Below, one piece after another: positions 1-12,504 of a stretch of 64,000 nt of DNA. The stretch comes from Verrucomicrobia bacterium LP2A. GTDB taxonomy: Bacteria > Verrucomicrobiota > Verrucomicrobiia > Methylacidiphilales > Methylacidiphilaceae. The stretch spans positions 1,116,001-1,180,000 of the forward strand of contig JAFS01000001.1 of NCBI GenBank assembly GCA_000526255.1. Direction: 5' to 3'. Each line of letters opens with the position of its first letter. Position 1 is the stretch's first letter. Below the pieces are notes generated by a model. The model searched no databases, had not been told where the DNA came from, and saw only the letters and a program-made list of their open reading frames with translations. Position numbers and translations under genes: made by a program.

Positions 1-870
1 TACGCCGACGCCTACACGCTCGATTGCGAACGGGTCCTCTTGACGCTCCTTCGTGGCCTCGGGCCGTGGAAGAACTCTGTCTTCCTGGTCGGCGGGCTGA
101 CGCCGAGATATCTCGTCAAGGCGCGGCCCCCGGAAGTCCCGCTGCACGCCGGCACGCAGGACGTCGACATCGTCATCGACCTCCAGATCCTCGCGGACAC
201 CGGAGCCTACCAGACGCTCGAGGATAACCTTCGGAGGCTCGGGTTTGAGAGAGCGACCAACGATAAGGGGCAGAAGCTCTCCTGGCGTTGGCAGACGCGC
301 ACGGAGCACGGCGCCCTGATGATTCTGGAATTGCTGGCCGATGCCCCCGAGATTGCCGGCGGCAAGGTGCAGCCCTTGCCGACCGCAGGTACGATCTCCG
401 CCCTGAACATTCCTCACTCGTCGATTGTTTTCGACCTGCATCAGTCCACTGAGGTCCAAGCCGAGCTTCTCGGTGGCGCTGGCGTTACGACTGAGATCGT
501 CCGGCATGCCAATCTCGTCAGCTTCACCTGCCTGAAAGCATTGGCATTTGATCAGCGGTTCGAGCGGAAGGATGCGCACGACCTGATCTACTGCATCGAG
601 CACGCCCCGGAGGGGCTAGACGCCGCCGCAGCAGCGTTCCGGGAGGCTCTGGCTGGCAAGCATGGCGTGGTGCTGGCCGACACGCTTGCGATTCTTCGGC
701 GTAGGTTCTGCTCGGATGAAAAGGTTGAGGGCTTCCGCAAAGACGGGCCGGTTGCCGTCGCCCTCTTCGAGCAAGGCGAAGATCTCAAGCTCCGCGAAGC
801 GCGTGCCCTCCGGCAACGTGAAACAAGCGATCTGGTTGCTCGCTTGCTCTCCCTGATTGTAAGAGGGTAA
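1..870 (+). CDS. AbiEii-like nucleotidyltransferase (5' partial)
   Basis: The frame is open from the first base, so the gene starts upstream of the window. The protein shows a nucleotidyltransferase-fold signature: a VGG loop (FLVGGLTPRYL) followed by the acidic motif GTQDVDIVID. A C-terminal helix LKALAFDQRFERKDAHDL resembles the conserved K...R..KD..DL segment of AbiEii/AbiGii toxins and DUF1814-type proteins, which transfer nucleotides to RNA or protein targets. The stop codon (868-870) lies one base before the ATG of the caspase-helicase gene, and that gene's purine-rich ribosome binding site (GAGGG) is inside this gene's end, so the two are almost certainly co-translated. Family membership is inferred from motifs. 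The substrate is unknown and the N-terminus is not visible. Confidence 0.72.
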   Translation, partial: YADAYTLDCERVLLTLLRGLGPWKNSVFLVGGLTPRYLVKARPPEVPLHAGTQDVDIVIDLQILADTGAYQTLEDNLRRLGFERATNDKGQKLSWRWQTRTEHGALMILELLADAPEIAGGKVQPLPTAGTISALNIPHSSIVFDLHQSTEVQAELLGGAGVTTEIVRHANLVSFTCLKALAFDQRFERKDAHDLIYCIEHAPEGLDAAAAAFREALAGKHGVVLADTLAILRRRFCSDEKVEGFRKDGPVAVALFEQGEDLKLREARALRQRETSDLVARLLSLIVRG

Positions 871-871
871 G

Positions 872-3800
872 ATGGCGACGAGCGCAGTCTTCGTTGGTGT
901 CAACAAGCACCGCGATCCTTCGATTCCGGAACTTGGCGGTGCGCGCCGCGACGCCACAGCTCTCTGGGCCCTGTTCACCGATACGATCGAAGGCCTTTCG
1001 GCACGCCTCCTCGTCGACGAACGAGCGACGCATGCTGAAGTATCCGCAGCTATCCTCGGTACGCTTGATGCGGCACGAGAGGACGATGTCGTCGTCGTCA
1101 GCTTCGCGGGTCACGGCTCGCCGGACGGCAGCTTGATCCTGTTTGATACCGATGCCGCCGACTTGGCTGGCACCGCGCTGCCGATGGCCGCTTTAGCCGA
1201 CGCCTTCAAGGGGACGAAAGCTCGGGCGCTACTGTGCATCCTGGACTGCAGCTTCAGCGGACGGGCGCCAGCGCGCGTCCTTGAGAGGGAAGTACAATCG
1301 AGGAATGCCTTCCCGCTGGCTGGGGCATACGGTGAAGGCCGGATCCTCCTGGCCGCCTGCGCGACGACCGAATCGGCGTGGGAACAGCCTGGAACCGGAC
1401 ACGGCCTTCTCACCTATGCGACGATCGAAACGCTAACGCGGAGCGCCGGCGAGACAGTGAGCTTTCCCGAGGTGGCTGAGGAGATTATTCGCTTTGCCCG
1501 GGTCGAGGCTGAGCGGATCGGCGTGACTCAAACGCCCGTCTTTCTCGGCAGCGTACAGGGCGGCCTCGTGCTCCCTGCGCTGAGGCGGGGTGAGAACTTC
1601 GCCGCTGCCTTCCCTGCGATCGCGGTCCCGCAGATGTCCGGGTCGTTCATCGACCTGGCCGAGCATGGTTTCCCGCGGGAGATCGTCGATCAATGGGTCG
1701 AGAACTTCCCGCACGGGCTGAACCAACTGCAGCTAAAGGCCGTGAATGATCATGGCGTCCTTGACGGAAAGTCGTTGCTCGTGGTGGCGCCGACGAGCTC
1801 AGGCAAGACTCTAATCGGCGAACTGGCCGCAATCCGGGCGGTGACCGCCGGCAAGAAAGCCGTGTTCCTTCTGCCGTACCGAGCGCTCGTGAACGAGAAG
1901 TTCGAAGATTTCAGCGCGCGTTTCGCACCCGCCGGCTTGCGAGTCGTGCGGTGCAGCGGTGATGCGTCCGATGGTGCGGCTCCCGTCCTCAGCGGACGGT
2001 ATGATCTCGGGCTCTTCACCTACGAGATGTTTCTGAATCTAGCGCTCGGATCCCCGCGTCTGCTCAATCAACTCGCTTTGGTGGTGCTCGACGAAGGCCA
2101 ATTCACCACTGATCCCACGCGCGGGATTACGGTCGAGCTCATCCTGACCTTGCTGCTTCGGGCGCGACAGCGTGGTATCGAACCCCAGCTTGTCATCTTG
2201 TCGGCCGTTATCGGGAACTTGAATAACTTCGACAGATGGCTGGATTTGCCTGTTCTGAGCTCGCGCGAGCGGCCGGTTCCGCTGATCGAAGGCGTGCTCG
2301 ATCGGCAAGGTGTCTTTCAATTTGTCGACGTAGATGGGACGACAAAGACGGAACCGCTGCTCTCGGCTTACGAGATCGTGCAGCGGCAGGACAAGGCATC
2401 TTCCCAAGATGTGATCGTTCCGCTGGCGAAGCAGCTGGTCGGCAACGGTGAGAAGCTGCTTATTTTTCGGAGCTCCCGCGGCCGCGCGCAGGGTACTGCC
2501 CAGTATCTCTCAAAGGAGCTTGGGCTTCTGCCCGCAACGGGGGTGATCGCTCTCCTTCCGACTCAGGACCTGACAGCCGCTTCTCAGGATTTGCGCGAAT
2601 GCTTGCAGGGAGGCACGGCCTTCCACAATACCAACCTGCTCCGCGCCGAGCGCGAAGCGATCGAGCGGGGATATCGAGCCGCCCAGGACGGCATCCACGT
2701 CCTGGGCGCTACCACCACGCTCGCGGCTGGGATCAACACGCCCGCCTCCACCGTTGTCCTCGCTGAGACCAAATTCGCCAGCGAGGATAGACGGCCCTTC
2801 ACCGTCGCCGAGTACAAGAATATGGCTGGGCGGGCGGGTCGGCTGGGCTACAACGAGAACGGAAAGGCGATCATTCTGGCCAGGTCACCGGCGGAGCGTG
2901 CTCGGCTCTTTCAGCAATATGTGCTAGGGACCCCCGAAGGGATCACCTCATCCTTCCAACAGCGCGACCTCCCAACCTGGACGCTGCGCTTGCTCAGCCA
3001 GGTCCGGGGCGTGCGCCCAGAAGAGATCCCGGGTCTCCTGGTCAACACCTTTGGAGGTTATTCCGCCTCGCTCCGCGACCCTCAGTGGATACCGAGCGTC
3101 GAAGGGGAGGTGTCGGAACTGGTCACGCGCCTACTCGAAGCAGGCCTCGCGGAGCGAGATGGCGAACTGATCCATCTGACACTGCTTGGGCGGGCTTGTG
3201 GAGCATCGTCGCTCTCTTTCGAGTCGAGCCTGCGCCTCATCAAGTTGGTGCGTCAGCTCAACATCACGCAGGCGGACCCGATTCAGATGCTCGCCATCGT
3301 CCAGGTCTTGCCCGAAATGGACCGCATCTACACGCCAGTGATGAAGCGCGGTTCGTCTGAGAGCGTGCGGGCGAGCGATGCGATCCAGCGCTTCGGCCAC
3401 GCCATAGCTGGGGAACTTCAACGCTACTGCAAACCGTTCGAGTTCTGGGCACGCTGCAAACGGGCGTTGCTTCTCTTCGACTGGATTGCGGGCACCTCTA
3501 TCGGCGAACTGGAGCGGCGCTATTCGACGACGCCGTGCCAAGGGGTAGTTCGCTATGGTGATATCATTGGCATCGCGGACGGCGCGCGTTTCCATCTCCG
3601 GTCAGCCCATCAGGTTCTCTCTGCATTGTTTCCTGAGCAGCCGGCGTTTCTTATGGCGCTGGATGAGCTTCTGCGCAGGCTGGAATTCGGATTGCCGGCG
3701 GCCGCGCTCGGGCTGACCGAGCTGCCGATTAATCTGTGCCGTGGGCAGTATCTCGCTTTAGCCGCCGCCGGCGCGAGTAACGCCGAAGGCGCGAAAAGCT

Positions 3801-3898
3801 TGGATCTCGGTACCCTGATACGTTGCGTGGGGGAAGCCGCCGCAAAAGCGATTGCTACAATGCGTGAAGCGCCTGCTCAATCTAGGCTGGGTGGATAG
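872..3898 (+). CDS. Caspase-like peptidase fused to Ski2-type DEAD/DEAH helicase
   Basis: This 1008-residue protein joins two enzymes. Residues 1-235 form a peptidase C14 (caspase/metacaspase) domain: the catalytic His is in FAGHG (H81) and the Cys in DCSFSG (C126). From about residue 280 a superfamily 2 helicase begins, with a Q-like motif (LNQLQLKAVN), Walker A APTSSGKT (306-313), a Walker B variant DEGQ (407-410) and motif VI NMAGRAGRLG (about 650), the last typical of Ski2/Hel308 enzymes. The C-terminal ~300 residues look helical (winged-helix/ratchet-like). The likely logic is a nucleic-acid-sensing motor that switches on a protease. It sits directly behind the nucleotidyltransferase gene in one operon. 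An anti-phage role is inferred from architecture and from the island context. Confidence 0.82.
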   Translation: MATSAVFVGVNKHRDPSIPELGGARRDATALWALFTDTIEGLSARLLVDERATHAEVSAAILGTLDAAREDDVVVVSFAGHGSPDGSLILFDTDAADLAGTALPMAALADAFKGTKARALLCILDCSFSGRAPARVLEREVQSRNAFPLAGAYGEGRILLAACATTESAWEQPGTGHGLLTYATIETLTRSAGETVSFPEVAEEIIRFARVEAERIGVTQTPVFLGSVQGGLVLPALRRGENFAAAFPAIAVPQMSGSFIDLAEHGFPREIVDQWVENFPHGLNQLQLKAVNDHGVLDGKSLLVVAPTSSGKTLIGELAAIRAVTAGKKAVFLLPYRALVNEKFEDFSARFAPAGLRVVRCSGDASDGAAPVLSGRYDLGLFTYEMFLNLALGSPRLLNQLALVVLDEGQFTTDPTRGITVELILTLLLRARQRGIEPQLVILSAVIGNLNNFDRWLDLPVLSSRERPVPLIEGVLDRQGVFQFVDVDGTTKTEPLLSAYEIVQRQDKASSQDVIVPLAKQLVGNGEKLLIFRSSRGRAQGTAQYLSKELGLLPATGVIALLPTQDLTAASQDLRECLQGGTAFHNTNLLRAEREAIERGYRAAQDGIHVLGATTTLAAGINTPASTVVLAETKFASEDRRPFTVAEYKNMAGRAGRLGYNENGKAIILARSPAERARLFQQYVLGTPEGITSSFQQRDLPTWTLRLLSQVRGVRPEEIPGLLVNTFGGYSASLRDPQWIPSVEGEVSELVTRLLEAGLAERDGELIHLTLLGRACGASSLSFESSLRLIKLVRQLNITQADPIQMLAIVQVLPEMDRIYTPVMKRGSSESVRASDAIQRFGHAIAGELQRYCKPFEFWARCKRALLLFDWIAGTSIGELERRYSTTPCQGVVRYGDIIGIADGARFHLRSAHQVLSALFPEQPAFLMALDELLRRLEFGLPAAALGLTELPINLCRGQYLALAAAGASNAEGAKSLDLGTLIRCVGEAAAKAIATMREAPAQSRLGG

Positions 3899-4878: not shown

Positions 4879-6498
4879 ATGAAGGAGGCCGATCGGCTTC
4901 GCGACCTCCCGGCTCACGCATTCGATACGGTCGTCATCGGTGCGGGCACCGGCGGCCTGACAGCGGCGGCCCTGCTCGCTCGGCGGGGAAAGAAGGTGCT
5001 TCTGCTCGATCAGCACACGGTCCCCGGCGGGAATGCCACGATCTTCTCGCGAAACGGATACCAGTTCGACGTGGGCCTCCACTACCTCGGAGGCTGCCAT
5101 CCCGGCGGCCTCATCCCCCGCATCCTCCGCGCGGCCGGCGCAGAGCCGGTCGTCTTTGAAGAGATGGACCCCGAGGGCTACGACACCCTCCTCTTCCCCG
5201 ACTTTGCCTTCCGGGTTCCCAAGGGGATCGAGATCTTCCGGGAGCGGCTGCGGGAAGCCTTCCCCGAAGAGCGGCGGGGGATCGACCGCTATTGCGCTCT
5301 TCTCCGCTCGCTCGAGCGGCTCCTCCGCGAGCCAGCCCATCCAGCCCGAGCCCTCTGGGCCCTCGCGCGCTCCCCCCTCCTGCTCCGCTGGGCCAGCCGC
5401 TCGTTTGGCGACTTCCTTGAGAGCTGCAGCCCCCATCTCCCGCTGCAAGCCGTCCTCGCCGGCCAGCATGGCGACTACGCCCTCCCGCCCAGCCGCGCCT
5501 CTCTCCTTGTCGGCGCGGGCATCGCCGAGCACTACCTCGAGGGGGCCTACTTTCCCCGCGGCGGCGGCCAGGTCCTTTCCGACCGGCTAGCCGCGGCCTT
5601 CGAGGCGGCGGGCGGAAAGATCCTCCTCCGGAGCCGCGTTCAAGAGATCCTGGTGCGCCACGGAAGGGCCGTCGGCGTCCGCTTCGAGAGCCCCTACCTG
5701 GGCGTCCAAAAGGTCGAGGCCCGGCATGTCCTCTCGAACGCCGACATCAAGGAGACCTTTTTGCGTCTGCTTCCCGAAGGGACGCTCCGCTCGCAGACCC
5801 GGGAGCGAGCCCACCGCTGGGAGATGGCACCCGCGCTCTTCATCGCCTATCTCGGGGTCCGCCGTACGGCCTTGGAGAACCGGCTGGCCCGGACCAACTA
5901 CTGGATCCACTCGACCTACGATCACGAGATCCAGTATCGCCAAGCGGCCCGGGGGGAGTTCCCGGAGGCCCCGACGGTCTACGTTTCGATCGCCTCGCTC
6001 AAGGACCCCAAGAACGAGGCGCTTGCGCCCGAAGGGATCGTCAACCTCCAGCTGATGGCGGTGGCTCCGAGCCAGCCCGAGGCATGGGGACTCTCCCCGG
6101 AGGAAGCGCTCGGCCGCGGCTACCGGCGGAGCGCCCTCTATCGGGAGCGCAAGGAAGCCTTCGGCAAGAGGCTCATCGAGCTCTCGCGTGCGGCGTTCCC
6201 CCGCCTCCCTGAGGAGATCGTCTATCAGGAGCTGGCGACCCCTCTTACCCAGAGCCGCTATACCTGCTCCACGGGAGGAACGGGGTACGGGATCGCCGCT
6301 ACACCCAAGCAGTTTCTGCTCAGCCGCCCGGCAGCAAGGACAGAGCTGCCCGGCCTCCTCCTCTGCGGTGCCAGCTGCCGCACGGGGCATGGGATCGCGG
6401 GGGTCATGATGTCGGGCCTGATGGCCGCCTCGGCCATCCTCGGGCCGCATCTTCTGCCGGAAGTGCTGGGCAAGGCCAACGCCCTCACCCCCTCGTGA
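4879..6498 (+). CDS. CrtI/retinol-saturase-like FAD-dependent oxidoreductase
   Basis: A 539-residue NAD(P)/FAD oxidoreductase. The N-terminal Rossmann dinucleotide-binding motif is VVIGAGTGGLTAAALLARRG, followed by DQHTVPGGNATIF and the GLHYLGG segment seen in phytoene-desaturase and all-trans-retinol 13,14-reductase relatives. The C-terminal FAD-binding segment PGLLLCGASCRTGHGIAGVM is present. The substrate is probably a polyisoprenoid or other hydrophobic polyene, but it cannot be named from sequence. The last ~15 codons (LLPEVLGKANALTPS) lie in a repeat shared with the IS1380 remnant at 12.4 kb, so the native C-terminus may have been replaced. The ATG at 4879 has no upstream Shine-Dalgarno, in keeping with a leaderless transcript. 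Confidence 0.85.
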   Translation: MKEADRLRDLPAHAFDTVVIGAGTGGLTAAALLARRGKKVLLLDQHTVPGGNATIFSRNGYQFDVGLHYLGGCHPGGLIPRILRAAGAEPVVFEEMDPEGYDTLLFPDFAFRVPKGIEIFRERLREAFPEERRGIDRYCALLRSLERLLREPAHPARALWALARSPLLLRWASRSFGDFLESCSPHLPLQAVLAGQHGDYALPPSRASLLVGAGIAEHYLEGAYFPRGGGQVLSDRLAAAFEAAGGKILLRSRVQEILVRHGRAVGVRFESPYLGVQKVEARHVLSNADIKETFLRLLPEGTLRSQTRERAHRWEMAPALFIAYLGVRRTALENRLARTNYWIHSTYDHEIQYRQAARGEFPEAPTVYVSIASLKDPKNEALAPEGIVNLQLMAVAPSQPEAWGLSPEEALGRGYRRSALYRERKEAFGKRLIELSRAAFPRLPEEIVYQELATPLTQSRYTCSTGGTGYGIAATPKQFLLSRPAARTELPGLLLCGASCRTGHGIAGVMMSGLMAASAILGPHLLPEVLGKANALTPS

Positions 6499-6570
6499 GC
6501 ATTGCCCAGGGCTTGGGCTCCTTCAATGAGCCTGGCTGCTCAAAAGCCTCCGGAGCCAGGAGACGGCCAG
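6450..6570. repeat. ~120-bp dispersed repeat, copy 1
   Basis: This stretch matches 12385-12504 with only scattered mismatches. It covers the last codons of the FAD oxidoreductase and, on the minus strand, a tail reading WLRRLLSSQAH-stop that is also the C-terminus of the HEPN protein at 12.5 kb. One copy therefore came from the other by recombination or by an insertion-linked duplication. Confidence 0.75.
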
Positions 6571-6595: not shown

Positions 6596-8110
6596 TCAGA
6601 ACTGGAAAAGCGGGCTCGGATTGCTTTGAGAGACGACGAGCATTAATCGCTCCTTCGCCCTACTGAGGGCGACATACAAGAGGCACCGAGCATCCTCCCG
6701 GTCTGGAAAGGTGGTGGCGTCGCATGGCATCACTACGACGTTGCCGCATTCGAGCCCTTTGGCTTTGTGGATCGTGCTGATGGCGGCATCAGGCGGTTTT
6801 GGCCGCCCGTAGGTGCGGCGGTGGGTTATCTCGGCAAAACCCGAATCAATATCTTCGAAGTTGCCAAGTTTGACCGCCTCCCAGAACTCCCTGCCATGAT
6901 CCATCTCAATCTCGGAGAAATCCGCGTCGCCTTGTTTCAGCTCGGCCAAGCGGGCGAGAAGCTTGGCCACGCCGCGGTGATCGGGCTCAGCCAGCAGGAA
7001 GCGGCCAAGCTCTTGAATCTTGCCAGGCTTGCCTCGACTCCTCGCCCTGCAGCCTTCGCGCACTTCCGTTTTCAACCGATCGCCGAATGCTGAGGGACTG
7101 AAGCCTTTGCCGACGCCGTTCATGAATGCCACGACTGCGGCAACAAGCTCGGAACAGTTGCCGCGGCCCTCTGAGATTGCGTTAACAAGCTTTTCAAGCC
7201 ACGGCCGTGTGTGACCTTCCCACAGAGGGAGCCGGCGGTTGAAGAACGCACGCAACGAGCGTGCAGTCTCGTTGTAACGCGTAAGCACGAGCAGCGAGGC
7301 GTGGGATCGTGTGAATGCGTCGATGGCTCGCCGGTCGGTCGAACCAAGCTGATAGTTCCTGTCCCTACGCGCTTGGTTTTCCGCGACCACGATGGAGACG
7401 CTGGCAGGAAGGTTCTTGCGGAGATCGATCTTCCCACCGCTCTTGAGCACCGCCCGTGCCACAAGGGTCCAACTCCCGAGGTCCGGGCACCCGCTCCAGC
7501 GGTGCGGTGTGTCGAGTTCCTCGAACGCGTGGGCCTGTTTTATGAGAGCGCCCCAATCGTACGCCGGATTGGAGCCAGCCAGTGGTGTTTCCTTGAAAAT
7601 GCGCTGCACCGGGTCTGCGAACACCCGCAATCTGGCGCCTTGATTGAGCAGGGCCATGCCGAGCGCATGCTGATCGCCGGTGCAGTCCTGATGCTCGTCG
7701 CAGATCACGACAGGATAGCGTCTGGCCAAAGCTGCGGCGATCATCGGGTGCTGCTTGAGCAGGACTGCGACGCGAAGCGCAACTTTCCGATAACCGTCAC
7801 GCTCTTTTCGCGCCCAGGTCGGCACGTCAGCCGGGAGGTCAAGCCCGAGATGATAAGCGCTGGCGATACTCGTGATGAGACTGTCGATCGTGCGAATCTC
7901 GACACGACTACCGCTGCCTCTGGTGCGCTCGGCGAACACCGAGCAGGCGGCGTGAGTATGCGTCAGGATCAGGATACGGTCGGTTAGACAGGCTGCGACG
8001 TCACGGGCGTAGTCCGCGCCCTGGTGGGTCTTTCCGCAACCGGCCGGGGCTTCGACCAGCACCAGCGGTGCGTCCGACCTCAAGGCTGCATGGACGGATT
8101 TGTCGCTCAT
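6596..8110 (-). CDS. gajB: GajB-like UvrD/Rep-family helicase (Gabija 1)
   Basis: A 504-residue superfamily 1A helicase. Motif I is EAPAGCGKT and motif II is CDEHQD. Motif III is near VFADPVQRIF, motif V is STIHKAKGLE and motif VI is LLYVALSRAKERLML. The length fits GajB, a compact UvrD-like helicase. The chosen ATG (8108-8110) overlaps the TGA of the upstream GajA-like gene (ATGA, 8107-8110), so translation is coupled. A longer reading from 8197 lies inside gajA and is unlikely. In studied Gabija systems GajB binds the GajA tetramer and senses or processes DNA termini during phage infection. That role is transferred by homology. The gene is last in the operon and ends just before the 6450-6570 repeat. 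Confidence 0.85.
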   Translation of the reverse strand: MSDKSVHAALRSDAPLVLVEAPAGCGKTHQGADYARDVAACLTDRILILTHTHAACSVFAERTRGSGSRVEIRTIDSLITSIASAYHLGLDLPADVPTWARKERDGYRKVALRVAVLLKQHPMIAAALARRYPVVICDEHQDCTGDQHALGMALLNQGARLRVFADPVQRIFKETPLAGSNPAYDWGALIKQAHAFEELDTPHRWSGCPDLGSWTLVARAVLKSGGKIDLRKNLPASVSIVVAENQARRDRNYQLGSTDRRAIDAFTRSHASLLVLTRYNETARSLRAFFNRRLPLWEGHTRPWLEKLVNAISEGRGNCSELVAAVVAFMNGVGKGFSPSAFGDRLKTEVREGCRARSRGKPGKIQELGRFLLAEPDHRGVAKLLARLAELKQGDADFSEIEMDHGREFWEAVKLGNFEDIDSGFAEITHRRTYGRPKPPDAAISTIHKAKGLECGNVVVMPCDATTFPDREDARCLLYVALSRAKERLMLVVSQSNPSPLFQF

Positions 8111-9864
8111 CCATGGAGGTCCAAAATCTCGCTGAGGCCGACGGCCTTTCGAACAGCATTGCAGAAGGGGAGAAGCTGGGGCTTCAACTCTGGCCAAAGC
8201 GTGAGACTGAAGAGCTTATCAGCCAGTTCACGCCCGCCGGCGATCGATTTGAACCATCGGCCGGCATGAGCTTTGTATTCCTTTTTCTCACTTTCCTTGC
8301 CGGCAGGAACGACGCCAAGAGCGGCCTTGATAATGAGGTCCTTGAAGCCGCTGCCGGCGGTCGTCTTGACGGCAGCAAAGTCCTTACTGGGGATTCCGAG
8401 GCGATCGGCCAAGATACGCAATCGGTCGCCAGTTTTTTCGCCGCTGGGATCGGTGATCAATTCTTCCAGCTTGTTGTCGGGCACGACGGCGATGATGTTT
8501 TCTTCAATGCAGCGCGACGGCCACCGGAAAAGCAGGGCGCCGAGCTTCGTGTGCAGCTTCGCCCAGCGCGTGGGATATTTGCCTTCGTCGTCCGCAAATC
8601 CCCCGAAGCGCAAGCCGCCCGCTGCCAGGGCTTCCAAGATGTCAAGCGTGGTGTCGTGCCCACCGCCGTCACTGACGTGGACGCCATGTTTCTCGAGCGA
8701 GGAGCCGAACGCGCGCTCAAGGATAGCCGTGGTGAACCCGAGTTCGGTCGCGCCCTCCGCCACCACGGCGAGCCGCGACAGGAAGGCTTCCGGATCGGTC
8801 TTGCGGTGCTTCGCAATCTTAGTCCCATCGAGCGGCCCGATTTGACCGGTATGGTCCACGTACCAGAGCGAGGATTGTTCCGCGGCCGAGAGGACGGTCG
8901 GGCTGTGGGTGGTCAGAAATACCTGGGACGAGCCGGTCTGGAGCTTCTCAATCAACATTCGCTGCCGGTAGGGTTCGAGCCCGCGCTCCACCTCGTCGAC
9001 AAGAGTGATCGGCGCCTCGCCCTGGTTCTGCGCGGCGATGGCGAGCGCCGACAATCTCCGCGTTCCCGCTCCCCAACTCGCAAGGGGCAATGGGACGCCG
9101 GAGCGATCCGCGGTGAGGCCAATCATTGACGCGATCGATGCGCCTTGGCCGCCGGTGATCGCGAGGTCGAGGCCGGCGGGGAGGCTTTCATTTCTGAACG
9201 CAGTGTCGAGGTTCTTGAGCTCAGTCTGCGCCTCGGTGGTCAACTTCTTCTTGACGTCATTTTTCGCCAGCTCGCTTGCCATGCGCGAGCGCAGGCCTTT
9301 GTCGGAGAGTAGCCGGTCGAGTGCGGAACCCTGGACCAGCCTGAGATCGCGGTCATTGCGATCGTCGCCGAGCAGCCGGACTAGGCCGATGGTGCGCCGC
9401 AGAGCGACGGGAAAGCTGTCAGCAGAGCCGTCGGGCTGGATAATTTCATAGGCGAGTTCGAGGTCTTCGGTGCCGCGGACACGAACACGGTAAACCGGCT
9501 CGCCGCTGGATTGACCATCGTGTTCGAGAGTAGGAACGGATGCTTCTTCACCAGTCCATTCCCAAGGCCACGAGGGTTTCAATTGGCTGTTTATCCCGCC
9601 GCCTGCCGGCAGAAACAGTACAGCCTCTATGGAGAAGCCCGCGTCGATATGTCGATTGTAATAGTCGGGATCGGAGAGTGTCGTCGGATTTACCGGACTG
9701 AGGAGGAGTGCGATGGCTTCGAGGATCGTGGTCTTGCCGACGTCGCCGCCGCCTAGAATGACATTCACGCCGCGCGACGGCTTCCACTTGAGAGACGTGA
9801 TGCCGCGAAATCGCTCGACGGTGAGAGCGTAGATCGTTGGGGCCAGTGACGCGGCGTCGGTCAT
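8107..9864 (-). CDS. gajA: GajA-like OLD-family ATPase/TOPRIM nuclease (Gabija 1)
   Basis: A 585-residue class 2 OLD nuclease. The N-terminal ABC-type ATPase has Walker A GGGDVGKTTILEA, and a signature/Walker B region near ALAIAAQNQG...TLVDEVERGL followed by the D-loop/His switch FLTTHSPTVLSA. The C-terminal TOPRIM domain shows the glutamate motif VVAEGATE and acidic residues GGFADDEG. GajA proteins are nucleotide-gated DNA nickases that act with GajB. Both ends overlap neighbours by four bases (ATGA at 9861-9864 with the Fic gene, ATGA at 8107-8110 with gajB), which marks a tight three-gene operon. RecF or SbcC was considered, but the TOPRIM domain and helicase neighbour argue for Gabija. 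Confidence 0.87.
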   Translation of the reverse strand: MTDAASLAPTIYALTVERFRGITSLKWKPSRGVNVILGGGDVGKTTILEAIALLLSPVNPTTLSDPDYYNRHIDAGFSIEAVLFLPAGGGINSQLKPSWPWEWTGEEASVPTLEHDGQSSGEPVYRVRVRGTEDLELAYEIIQPDGSADSFPVALRRTIGLVRLLGDDRNDRDLRLVQGSALDRLLSDKGLRSRMASELAKNDVKKKLTTEAQTELKNLDTAFRNESLPAGLDLAITGGQGASIASMIGLTADRSGVPLPLASWGAGTRRLSALAIAAQNQGEAPITLVDEVERGLEPYRQRMLIEKLQTGSSQVFLTTHSPTVLSAAEQSSLWYVDHTGQIGPLDGTKIAKHRKTDPEAFLSRLAVVAEGATELGFTTAILERAFGSSLEKHGVHVSDGGGHDTTLDILEALAAGGLRFGGFADDEGKYPTRWAKLHTKLGALLFRWPSRCIEENIIAVVPDNKLEELITDPSGEKTGDRLRILADRLGIPSKDFAAVKTTAGSGFKDLIIKAALGVVPAGKESEKKEYKAHAGRWFKSIAGGRELADKLFSLTLWPELKPQLLPFCNAVRKAVGLSEILDLHG

Positions 9865-11258
9865 TTCGCCTCCCAGACTTGCCGCCAGGCCGCGAATTCC
9901 GAGGGCCGAATTCGATAGCGGGCGAAATTGCCTTCATGCAGGCTTGTGAGTTCGGCCTCGACGATCTCGCCGAAACGCTGGCGGTCGTCTTGGCTGATTT
10001 CTCTCGTTGACCAGGCGGCTATTCGCGCCGCGGCATCCCTGCGACTGACGCGCGCCCGGACGAGGTCGGCGATCAACTCCCGAAATTGCTCTCGATAGCG
10101 AAGTCGGAACGGATCGGGTTCACCAAGGGATTGACGAACGGCGGCGTAGCGGGCGGCCGAACGCTCGTAGGCCCAGATGAAGACGTCCTTGAGAAGATCG
10201 ATCTTGTTCAGCTCATAGACGCCGAGTACGGCTTCCATATAGGTCGCCCGGGGTACATCGGCGAATGATAGCGGCGATAGGTTGCGCTTGATGAGCGGGA
10301 TGTTCGCCGCGAGGCGCGAAACGCGCTTGTTCCCGTCGTCGAAGGGCTGCAGGTAGGGGAGCTGCACCATGACGAAGAAGGCTTGCTCGAAAGGATCGAT
10401 GATCGCAGCCGCCGTCGCCAGAATCTGATCGAAGGTTTCCTCAACGAGCTGCGGCACTTCCAGCGGATGAAATGCCGAGCGCTCGATGCCGACCGCGATA
10501 TAACGCAGCCTGCCGGCTGCTGTGGGATCGGCCAGGAGGTTGTTGGCCAGAAGCGCGTGGAGATTGAGGATGGTGTAGCGGTTGAAGCCGATCTCGTCGG
10601 CGGCGCTGACCAGGAATTCGATCGCGTCCTTGTGGTTCAGGATCATCTGCGCTTCAAGGTGCGCGCGCCCCTCCGCTTCTTCGCCCAACTCAATGAGACG
10701 CTTGGTATCGAGGAGCGAGTAGGTATTGCCTTCGAGGCGGCTTGAATTCCAAGCGAGATCGATCAGAAGCCTGTTGAGGATCTGCATGGCGTAGGTGCCG
10801 GCGGGCTGTTCGGCGATCTGCGAGCGGCCGATGGCCGCAAGATGTGCGCGATCCTCCTCGGTCAGGTAAAAGGAATCGTTCGGCCGATAGCGGTCGAGGA
10901 ATTTACGGTCGTAGCCGACCGGCTTGCGGGCTTCGAGCGCGCGCTGAACATAGTCACGGATAGATGCCCCTGCCTCGGATAGAGGAATCGCGGGCGGTTC
11001 GGCCTCAGGACGCGCAGCGACCTCGGCTGGAGGGATAGCGGCGGCACCAGGGGATATCCGGTACCTCGCCCAGCGGCCTTCGCCGTCCATCACCAGTCGT
11101 TTTCGGTCAACGAGAGATTTCAGGCGGTACTGGAGGGTTCGAAGGGGAATCGGGCCCGCAAGGGAGCGCAGGACCTCTTGCGCCGACGCGCCGTCAGGAT
11201 AGCGGCGGACGGCCTCTTCGATGGAGGCCAACGCATCGGCGGGGGTTTGCTTCGCCAA
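9861..11258 (-). CDS. Fic-fold protein with N-terminal winged helix, catalytic His replaced by Gln
   Basis: This is the first gene of the Gabija 1 operon. The protein has an N-terminal winged-helix segment (SIEEAVRRYPDGASAQEVLR through RWARYRIS), a Fic_N-like region with the inhibitory motif SSRLEGNT ([S/T]xxxE[G/N]) and a Fic domain whose signature reads LQPFDDGNKRVSRL. Canonical Fic AMP-transferases have HPFx(D/E)GNGRxxR, so the catalytic His is Gln and NGR is NKR. It may be inactive or use another chemistry. A TTG at 11258 with AAAGG upstream is the chosen start because it leaves the palindrome cluster in the promoter. A longer start at 11318 is possible. A regulator or guard role for the Gabija pair is inference. 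Confidence 0.82.
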   Translation of the reverse strand: MAKQTPADALASIEEAVRRYPDGASAQEVLRSLAGPIPLRTLQYRLKSLVDRKRLVMDGEGRWARYRISPGAAAIPPAEVAARPEAEPPAIPLSEAGASIRDYVQRALEARKPVGYDRKFLDRYRPNDSFYLTEEDRAHLAAIGRSQIAEQPAGTYAMQILNRLLIDLAWNSSRLEGNTYSLLDTKRLIELGEEAEGRAHLEAQMILNHKDAIEFLVSAADEIGFNRYTILNLHALLANNLLADPTAAGRLRYIAVGIERSAFHPLEVPQLVEETFDQILATAAAIIDPFEQAFFVMVQLPYLQPFDDGNKRVSRLAANIPLIKRNLSPLSFADVPRATYMEAVLGVYELNKIDLLKDVFIWAYERSAARYAAVRQSLGEPDPFRLRYREQFRELIADLVRARVSRRDAAARIAAWSTREISQDDRQRFGEIVEAELTSLHEGNFARYRIRPSEFAAWRQVWEAK

Positions 11259-11270
11259 AATGGGACCTTT

Positions 11271-11369
11271 CTTGCGCGTAGAGCTTATGCGCAAGAATGG
11301 CTCGGGCTCGCGCAACAATCAAGTCTATGCGCAGGCATTCTATCTACGCGCAATAAACATTGCGCGTAG
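11271..11369 (-). promoter_or_regulatory. Palindrome cluster upstream of the Fic-Gabija operon
   Basis: Two perfect palindromes flank this control region: arms CTTGCGC/GCGCAAG at 11271-11295 (11-base spacer) and arms CTACGCGCAAT/ATTGCGCGTAG at 11344-11369 (4-base spacer). Further half-sites of the same TGCGC(A/G) core lie between them (around 11310 and 11328). Such a cooperative operator array suits autoregulation by the winged helix of the Fic protein. Promoter boxes within it are not clear. Confidence 0.65.
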
Positions 11370-11639: not shown

Positions 11640-12435
11640 ACAACGAGGAAGGAAAGCGGCCTTCTCTGACAGAGCGGATCGAAGAGACTTTTGGGTTGAG
11701 AGCCTATTTTTCGCGTCGGGGGAAAGCGGGATTCCCCTAGGACGGGTTTCGAGCGATGGGGACGCAATCCTCTTACGAAAAGCCGATCGGAAGATCCGTT
11801 TGTGAAGACGGCTGGAGCGCTGCTTCCGGGATCGACGCCATCCGGGGCGCATCGTACATCGGATGCGAGAGATGCAGGTGCCGCGCATCTTCGGGATTGC
11901 GCTAGGCTACGAGGCTCTCAATGACCACGAGCAGCTGCATACCGATCCGTTGGTGGCTCTCCTGAGCGGCAAAAGGGATCGGGGAGAGGATCTGGCGGGC
12001 AAGAGTACGCTTGAGCCGCCTGGAACGGGTGGGTCGAAGAGAACGCTACCACAAGATCGATTCCTCAGCCGAAACCGTCGATCGGTGATTGGTCGATCTC
12101 TCCCTTGAAGCGCATCCCCAGCCTCCCAAGGAGGTGGTGCTCGGGTTCGATGCGACCAACATCCCTCTTTACGGACAAGAGCCCGAGCGCTTCTTCCTTG
12201 GGGTTTCCGATGCGTATTGTGATTTGCCGCTCTCCATCTTCGCTAAAGATCAACTCCTCGGTGTGCGGCTTCGGCCATCGAACCCGGATGCGGCGGAGGG
12301 ATCCCTTGCCGAGATCCTCCGGATCGTGGGACACCTCCGCACCCATTGGCCCGAGGTCAGGATCGTGCTCCAGGCCGACTCGGGGCTTCTGCCGGAAGTG
12401 GTGGACAAGGCCAACGCCCTCACCTCCTCGTGAGC
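11640..12435 (+). mobile_element. Degenerate IS1380-family transposase remnant
   Basis: The central part reads RIFGIALGYEALNDHEQLH, the conserved block of IS1380 transposases (GYEDLNDH.LR.DP), followed by LAGKSTL. A +1 frameshift near 12005 moves the frame to LSRLERVGRRERYHKIDS. An in-frame TGA at 12086-12088 interrupts what should be DRWLVDL. Then VLGFDATNIPLYGQ and CDLPLSIFAKDQLL follow, with the second catalytic Asp in LQADSG. The frame breaks again after DSG, where IS1380 proteins continue DSGFCR. Upstream (stop at 11803) the N-terminal half is unreadable. The element is dead. Its 3' end merges with the 120-bp repeat. Confidence 0.8.
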
Positions 12436-12504
12436 TTTGCCCAGGGCTTGGGATCCTTCAATGGGCCTGGCTGCTCAACAGCCTCCGGAGCCAGGGGACG
12501 GCCA
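12385..12504. repeat. ~120-bp dispersed repeat, copy 2
   Basis: Second copy of the sequence at 6450-6570. Here it links the IS1380 remnant's 3' end (plus strand) with the C-terminal codons of the HEPN gene (minus strand). Confidence 0.75.

Follow-up and report, generated by a model that had tools for sequence, protein, structure and literature searches.

In the Hachiman system HamMAB, a complex of the Ski2-like helicase HamB has control over a trypsin-like protease that is fused to HamA and that turns on a pro-nuclease, and the complex responds to DNA and to ATP hydrolysis (PMC12799240). The bacterial caspase homolog MaOC1 cleaves an antitoxin (PMC7935541). Caspase-helicase fusions have been counted before: passages of a 2012 survey of prokaryotic caspases report that 12 of 671 bacterial metacaspases carry helicase-type domains, and they describe no family, context or function for these (PMC3501461). 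Here we analyze a caspase-helicase fusion that is encoded in a 64,000-nucleotide stretch of the genome of Verrucomicrobia bacterium LP2A (the window, G000:C1:1116001-1180000; the genome is 2.47 Mb in three contigs). An earlier reading of this DNA from its sequence alone (the sequence-only reading) had recognized no named defense system here, and we found none for the fusion in PADLOC-DB (2023) or in the literature that we searched, which covered few subscription journals. We regard the fusion as a putative defense helicase that is coupled to a protease.

The sequence-only reading had described a nucleotidyltransferase (NTase) followed, after one base, by a fusion of a caspase and a Ski2 helicase. 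The two open reading frames and their spacing stand (Table 1), and Pfam and NCBIfam agree on the domains of the fusion. In Pfam, Peptidase_C14 matches amino acids (aa) 5-197 (E = 2e-6, above the cut-off), DEAD matches aa 287-448 (2e-20), Helicase_C matches aa 559-659 (1e-5), and the archaeal helicase domain 4 matches weakly at aa 805-939. The helicase half is nearest to Hel308 in NCBIfam (3e-82). The best PADLOC matches of the fusion are the HamB models (9e-33; phmmer to HamB gives 9e-21).

Table 1. Positions in the window of the genes, domains and motifs discussed in the text
Feature	Position	Strand	Remark
AbiEii/GSU2403-like NTase, putative type IV toxin-antitoxin toxin	1..870	+	5' end cut by window edge
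Caspase-Hel308-like helicase fusion, 1008 aa	872..3898	+	One base after NTase stop
Caspase (C14, EACC1-type) domain, aa 1-235	872..1576	+	Pfam; NCBIfam NF047832; metacaspase-4, 6e-7
Catalytic His81 codon	1112..1114	+	AGHG (GHG motif), invariant in 81/81
Cys126	1247..1249	+	"x" of D-x-C; Ser or Ala in 4 active-looking homologs
Ser127, codon AGC, nucleophile column	1250..1252	+	Cys in 80/81 aligned complete members
Disordered loop, aa 129-153, confidence score (pLDDT) < 50	1256..1330	+	Directly after caspase active site; sole long disordered stretch
Complete Hel308-like superfamily 2 helicase, aa 257-1000	1640..3871	+	Two RecA domains, winged helix, ratchet, C-terminal helices
Walker A / motif I, APTSSGKT, aa 306-313	1787..1810	+	G311, K312, T313 invariant in 82/82
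Motif II, DEGQ, aa 407-410	2090..2101	+	D407, E408 invariant in 82/82
Motif VI, NMAGRAGR, aa 650-657	2819..2842	+	R654, R657 invariant in 82/82

An AlphaFold2 model of the fusion, built from 67 sequences, has a mean predicted local distance difference test (pLDDT) score of 87.4 and a predicted template modeling (pTM) score of 0.86. Residues 257-1000 of the model align end to end with archaeal Hel308 (9b15; Z = 38.2, root-mean-square deviation 3.5, 672 residues; VIA-align), and the alignment includes a winged helix and a ratchet domain after the pair of RecA domains. The helicase of human Pol-theta also matches (Z = 35, VIA-align), and Foldseek matches the model to another archaeal Hel308 structure (2zj8, 2.5e-43). 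HamB was not among the 50 structural matches listed for the fusion, from an incomplete list, and the best of those listed were Hel308. Motifs I, II, III, V, and VI of superfamily 2 (SF2) helicases are near-invariant over 82 sequences from the family, and the helicase motif residues of the window copy (K312 in Walker A, D407/E408, and R654/R657) are invariant across the family. In the model, the loop that follows the caspase active site is possibly an L2-like activation loop.

The caspase region of the window copy is predicted to have a caspase fold, but its sequence does not support an active caspase. The family's signature is D-x-C-F-[SA]-G, which is LDCCFSG in most members, LDSCFSG in three, and LDACFAG in one. 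The window copy reads LDCSFSG (TGC AGC at codons 126-127), and it is the sole sequence among 81 with a residue other than cysteine at position 127. In an alignment of hidden Markov models (HMMs), column 127 falls on Cys139 (DSCHSGG) of metacaspase-4 (6w8s), the catalytic cysteine of that enzyme. By the D-x-C motif and this alignment, the nucleophile is residue 127, not Cys126. The sequence-only reading had proposed His81 and Cys126 as the caspase dyad. His81 is indeed invariant, and the family does conserve a dyad, but with the cysteine at 127, where the window copy has serine. As this is the nucleophile position, the window copy probably has no active protease, and it most likely keeps the helicase, or sensor, without proteolysis. 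Across the many phyla of the family, His81 and Cys127 are nearly invariant, so the family as a whole appears to be under selection for proteolysis. Over aa 1-230, the window copy and its relative in locus L036 (L-numbers are our labels for the loci that we compared) have a nonsynonymous divergence (dN) of 0.07 and a synonymous divergence (dS) of 0.86, or dN/dS of about 0.08; both domains of the fusion are under purifying selection, with dN/dS of about 0.1. The ratio of caspase divergence to helicase divergence is 1.06 for the window copy and L036, versus a median of 1.20 in other pairs. Neither dN/dS nor this ratio gave any sign that selection on the caspase domain of the window copy has relaxed.

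The fusion resembles several known systems in part. Like Hachiman (HamAB and HamMAB), it has a Ski2-like SF2 helicase as the proposed DNA sensor (PMC12278908, PMC12799240), and like HamMAB, it couples a helicase to a protease effector (PMC12799240). Unlike in Hachiman, a caspase serves as the protease, on the same chain as the helicase, and the helicase is Hel308-like rather than HamB-like. We rejected membership in Hachiman because HamA (DUF1837) was not found among the adjacent or recurrent annotated neighbors. Canu (CanABC) also has a caspase-family protease in a defense island (PMC12799240), but the fusion carries a helicase instead and no Ig-like domain was seen; we rejected membership in Canu since a motif scan found no adjacent gene for a metallo-beta-lactamase (MBL). 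Archaeal Hel308 and Pol-theta share the whole fold of the helicase half (about 670 residues, 26-28% identity), but the fusion has an N-terminal caspase and is distributed sporadically in bacterial defense islands. The EACC1-associated caspases (PMC7159879) provide the nearest curated caspase model (NF047832, 7e-26), but the fusion scores below the cut-off of that model (91 versus 140 bits) and has a C-terminal helicase.

To survey the family, we scanned 84,980 species genomes, which gave 143 relatives, and we kept 78 distinct loci. The family thus has at least 143 loci. They are found in Pseudomonadota, Bacteroidota, Cyanobacteriota, Acidobacteriota, Actinomycetota, Chloroflexota, Armatimonadota, Nitrospirota, Myxococcota, Gemmatimonadota, Bacillota, and two candidate phyla, and the members are scattered and nested across phyla on the tree. 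Some are on conjugative plasmids, and 12 plasmids carry the fusion at 80% coverage or more (tblastn). Viral contigs gave no match when searched with the single fusion protein and one locus (L113) when searched with the fusion alignment. We built a tree of the 81 complete fusions, and it places the window copy within those of Alphaproteobacteria with 97% support (it is 82% identical to the copy from Rhodopila). The full-length fusion was not found in the six further genomes of the genus or among the other relatives (of the same family) that we searched. From this placement and the absence from related genomes, we conclude that the window copy was acquired horizontally. The fusion was also not found in 384 other alphaproteobacterial genomes that we sampled. 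A few copies are naturally broken: in L091 (9001-13335) a transposase-like gene separates two pieces of the fusion, and in L053 and L096 the reading frame is interrupted.

The neighbors of the fusion point to defense. QatABCD lies directly downstream of the fusion in 8 loci, a complete or partial Lamassu system (LmuA/B) lies upstream in L035, and L062 has an SMC/SIR2 pair. Other neighbors include AbiE pairs, the Mrr endonuclease, AbiJ_NTD4, a kinase, and a multiubiquitin/ThiF cassette. In a matched sample from 15 genomes, 60 neighbors of the fusion matched 56 PADLOC models at 1e-20, versus 4 models for 60 controls from the same genomes; the models overlap, so this amounts to about ten proteins versus two. 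Enrichment in defense islands, which the sequence-only reading had suggested checking, is thus seen in this small sample. In the window itself, 2.7 kb downstream of the fusion and on the - strand, are genes for a GajB-like protein (6596-8197), a GajA-like protein (8107-9864), and a Fic protein (9861-11318).

Two other arrangements occur near some of the fusions. On rhizobial plasmids, the fusion has a ubiquitin-like cassette next to it, which consists of the multiubiquitin-domain protein, an E1-like enzyme of the ThiF family, and, in loci where it is annotated, DUF6527; the cassette is upstream of the fusion in L023 and L034 and downstream in L025, L033, and L082. On plasmids of Bosea and Rhodopseudomonas, TIR-domain proteins adjoin separate caspase-family proteins near the fusion (L029, 13177-21042; L031, 6167-8059).

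At the window locus, a helix-turn-helix (HTH) gene, the NTase gene, and the fusion gene form a three-gene unit. The NTase starts 27 nucleotides (nt) before the window, so that the full gene encodes 298 amino acids (L002:9974-10870, where L002 is the window locus plus upstream DNA). The HTH gene (360 amino acids, L002:8892-9974) lies outside the window, and its stop codon overlaps the ATG start codon of the NTase.

The window's NTase had been read as AbiEii-like. It has no Pfam match itself, but among 15 of its homologs, two match AbiEii (3.7e-5) and one matches NTP_transf_8 (9e-6). GG40-41 and D63-V-D65 (the GG...DVD motif) are invariant in the 15, and NCBI names the relatives as AbiEii/AbiGii toxins or GSU2403-fold NTases. 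We base the AbiEii-like assignment on this motif, on the few Pfam matches of its relatives, on the NCBI names, and on its AbiEi-like partner. A profile of the NTase had no match in the PDB, a profile-profile comparison to AbiEii (hhalign) had no match, with few sequences on both sides, and an AlphaFold model of the NTase, from an alignment that was too shallow (pLDDT 45), was not used. The HTH protein has a winged HTH and, before it, a region like the PD-(D/E)xK fold (a weak match to NucS); 13 of 15 HTH homologs match AbiEi_2 weakly (9e-6 at best). At the window locus, the HTH protein has Ala in place of the Glu in its putative E-x-K. A PD-(D/E)xK-like N-terminal region would be unusual for an antitoxin. 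As in the type IV toxin-antitoxin (TA) system AbiE (PMC3985639), a winged-HTH partner and an NTase are encoded in a coupled operon. Unlike in AbiE, the window's NTase is below Pfam detection and the HTH protein has the PD-(D/E)xK-like region.

The HTH gene is directly upstream of the NTase, with an overlap of 1-4 nt. The NTase is on 52 plasmid records at 80% coverage or more, with the HTH gene alongside in the same order. The 40 best plasmids for the NTase do not include any of the 12 that carry the full-length fusion, and the fusion is absent from the seven HTH-NTase loci on plasmids that we read. Some pairs head other defense operons: in Delftia, the pair is followed by the Mrr restriction endonuclease and QatABC; in Caballeronia, by a large DEAD/DEAH helicase; and in L156, by genes that resemble SIR2, HerA, and QatA, as judged only by how their sequences start. 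Other pairs stand alone. Judging by these arrangements, the HTH protein and the NTase are an obligate pair and an autonomous, type IV TA-like module.

The sequence-only reading had taken the NTase and the fusion for one dedicated unit. This does not hold across the family: about 90% of fusion loci have no NTase, and the constant partner of the NTase is the HTH gene. With the HTH-NTase pair being autonomous as well, we rejected the NTase as a dedicated partner of the fusion. The gene order of the window does recur, although in few loci: among the 85 loci whose upstream gene could be read, 9 loci from several classes have the HTH-NTase pair before the fusion at a distance of 1-11 nt (the window, L036, L038, L041, L042, L044, L045, L048, and L096). 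The eight of these carriers that could be used fall in three places on the tree of 81 fusions, which requires three changes. The prevalence of the NTase is about 1% (3/368 and 3/385 genomes in samples from two classes), and at this prevalence the chance of 9 or more of 85 is about 2e-7, if relatedness is ignored. This excess makes a functional or mechanistic link likely, though not an obligate one. The NTase is not the only gene in this position. A gene on the same strand lies within 50 nt upstream of the fusion in 29 of 85 loci; it is the NTase in 9, DUF2158 in 9, and other genes in the rest. The DUF2158 leader (74-94 amino acids) is 2-6 nt upstream of the fusion in nine alphaproteobacterial loci (at 8757-8981 in L025, L033, and L082, plus six more). 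As the upstream genes vary, the fusion is a self-standing gene that takes different small leaders.

We propose that the fusion is a single-gene candidate defense protein, that the HTH-NTase module is an accessory to it, and that the window copy is most likely non-proteolytic; we would give this combination about an even chance of being right. We infer that the Hel308-type motor would load on and translocate along aberrant DNA, such as replication forks that have stalled or branched, or ends and single strands that arise from an invading phage or plasmid or from damage. In active members of the family, a change in the motor's shape or its oligomerization would switch on the fused caspase, which would cleave one or more host or neighboring proteins so that growth stops. 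The AbiEi-like HTH protein and the AbiEii-like NTase, which several times head defense operons, probably regulate, guard, or add to them. By analogy, HamMAB offers a working precedent for a protease under the control of a helicase, and MaOC1 offers one for a bacterial caspase homolog with an antitoxin as its target.

That analogy with MaOC1 (PMC7935541) also suggests a different arrangement, in which the three genes act as a unit: when the helicase detects foreign DNA, cleavage of the AbiEi-like HTH antitoxin by the caspase would free the NTase toxin. The close spacing of the pair to the fusion in nine loci, which seems well beyond chance, would fit. However, most fusion loci lack the pair, the pair also occurs alone or before unrelated defense genes, and the window copy lacks the nucleophile cysteine, so we consider this arrangement unlikely. 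Another explanation concerns the window copy in particular: it could be a C127S allele, in decay or inactivated not long ago, of a toxic defense gene, and it would then persist only as a passenger or an inactive sensor. Only this one of 81 copies lacks Cys127, other copies are naturally broken (L091, L053, and L096), and the upstream HTH protein has also lost the Glu of E-x-K. On the other hand, its reading frame is unbroken, no helicase motif is lost, and purifying selection acts on both domains. We view an inactivated allele as a serious contender, though less likely than not. Finally, the helicase half is a full repair helicase of the Hel308/Pol-theta type, so we also considered that the fusion might be a house-keeping helicase whose caspase is merely regulatory or a docking site, with no role in defense. 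Against this are the sporadic distribution of the fusion (0 of 384 other alphaproteobacterial genomes sampled and none among the genomes searched from the same genus or family), its presence on conjugative plasmids, and its defense neighbors, and we think it quite improbable.

Several observations weigh against our own proposal of a defense protein with a non-proteolytic copy in the window. The enrichment test was small, it counts models, and its controls were arbitrary stretches of chromosome. No adjacent gene is constant across the fusion loci, and therefore no substrate is singled out. A scan of all neighboring genes for [ST]HxHxDH found no adjacent MBL pro-nuclease of the Canu or HamM type. 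And given the strong constraint around Ser127, the domain is not visibly decaying, so the serine might still serve a purpose or be tolerated in some other way, might be a very recent change, or might be a sequencing error.

A few other features of the window locus and its surroundings deserve mention. The genes that flank the fusion in the window are the NTase and a TetR gene. The Gabija-like gene gajA overlaps both gajB and the fic gene (6596-11318), and a 119-bp repeat (6451-6569 and 12386-12504, 93% identical) flanks the three genes, like the edges of an inserted island. The stretch of defense genes from the HTH gene to fic is enclosed by inverted repeats of about 84% identity (about 1.7-1.36 kb before the window's start, and 11687-12395 in the window). 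Upstream of the island, adjacent methyltransferase-like genes contain a 772-bp tandem duplication of 90.5% identity (L002 4-772 and 1104-1875). The host also has two pmoA-like genes (AMO/pMMO, the ammonia and particulate methane monooxygenases) at G000:C1:1248861-1252951, which marks it as a methanotroph.

More tentatively, the fusions may represent a widespread, unnamed defense family whose members combine a DNA sensor (the Hel308-type motor) and a caspase executioner in a single polypeptide; leaders such as the AbiEi/NTase pair would be exchanged among them as extra effectors or as effectors that the caspase releases, and C127S variants would occur naturally. The swappable TA leader shows how defense operons acquire new components. 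The C127S copy, a natural variant, is a caution against inferring a catalytic dyad from a single sequence, and it provides a ready control for experiments. If this broader reading is correct, then the fusion would be a bacterial counterpart of signaling from a helicase sensor to a caspase. Known immune pathways keep helicase sensing and caspase execution on separate proteins, whereas a single chain with both, conserved across many phyla and also carried by conjugative plasmids, would offer a compact model of proteolytic cell death that is triggered by nucleic acids.

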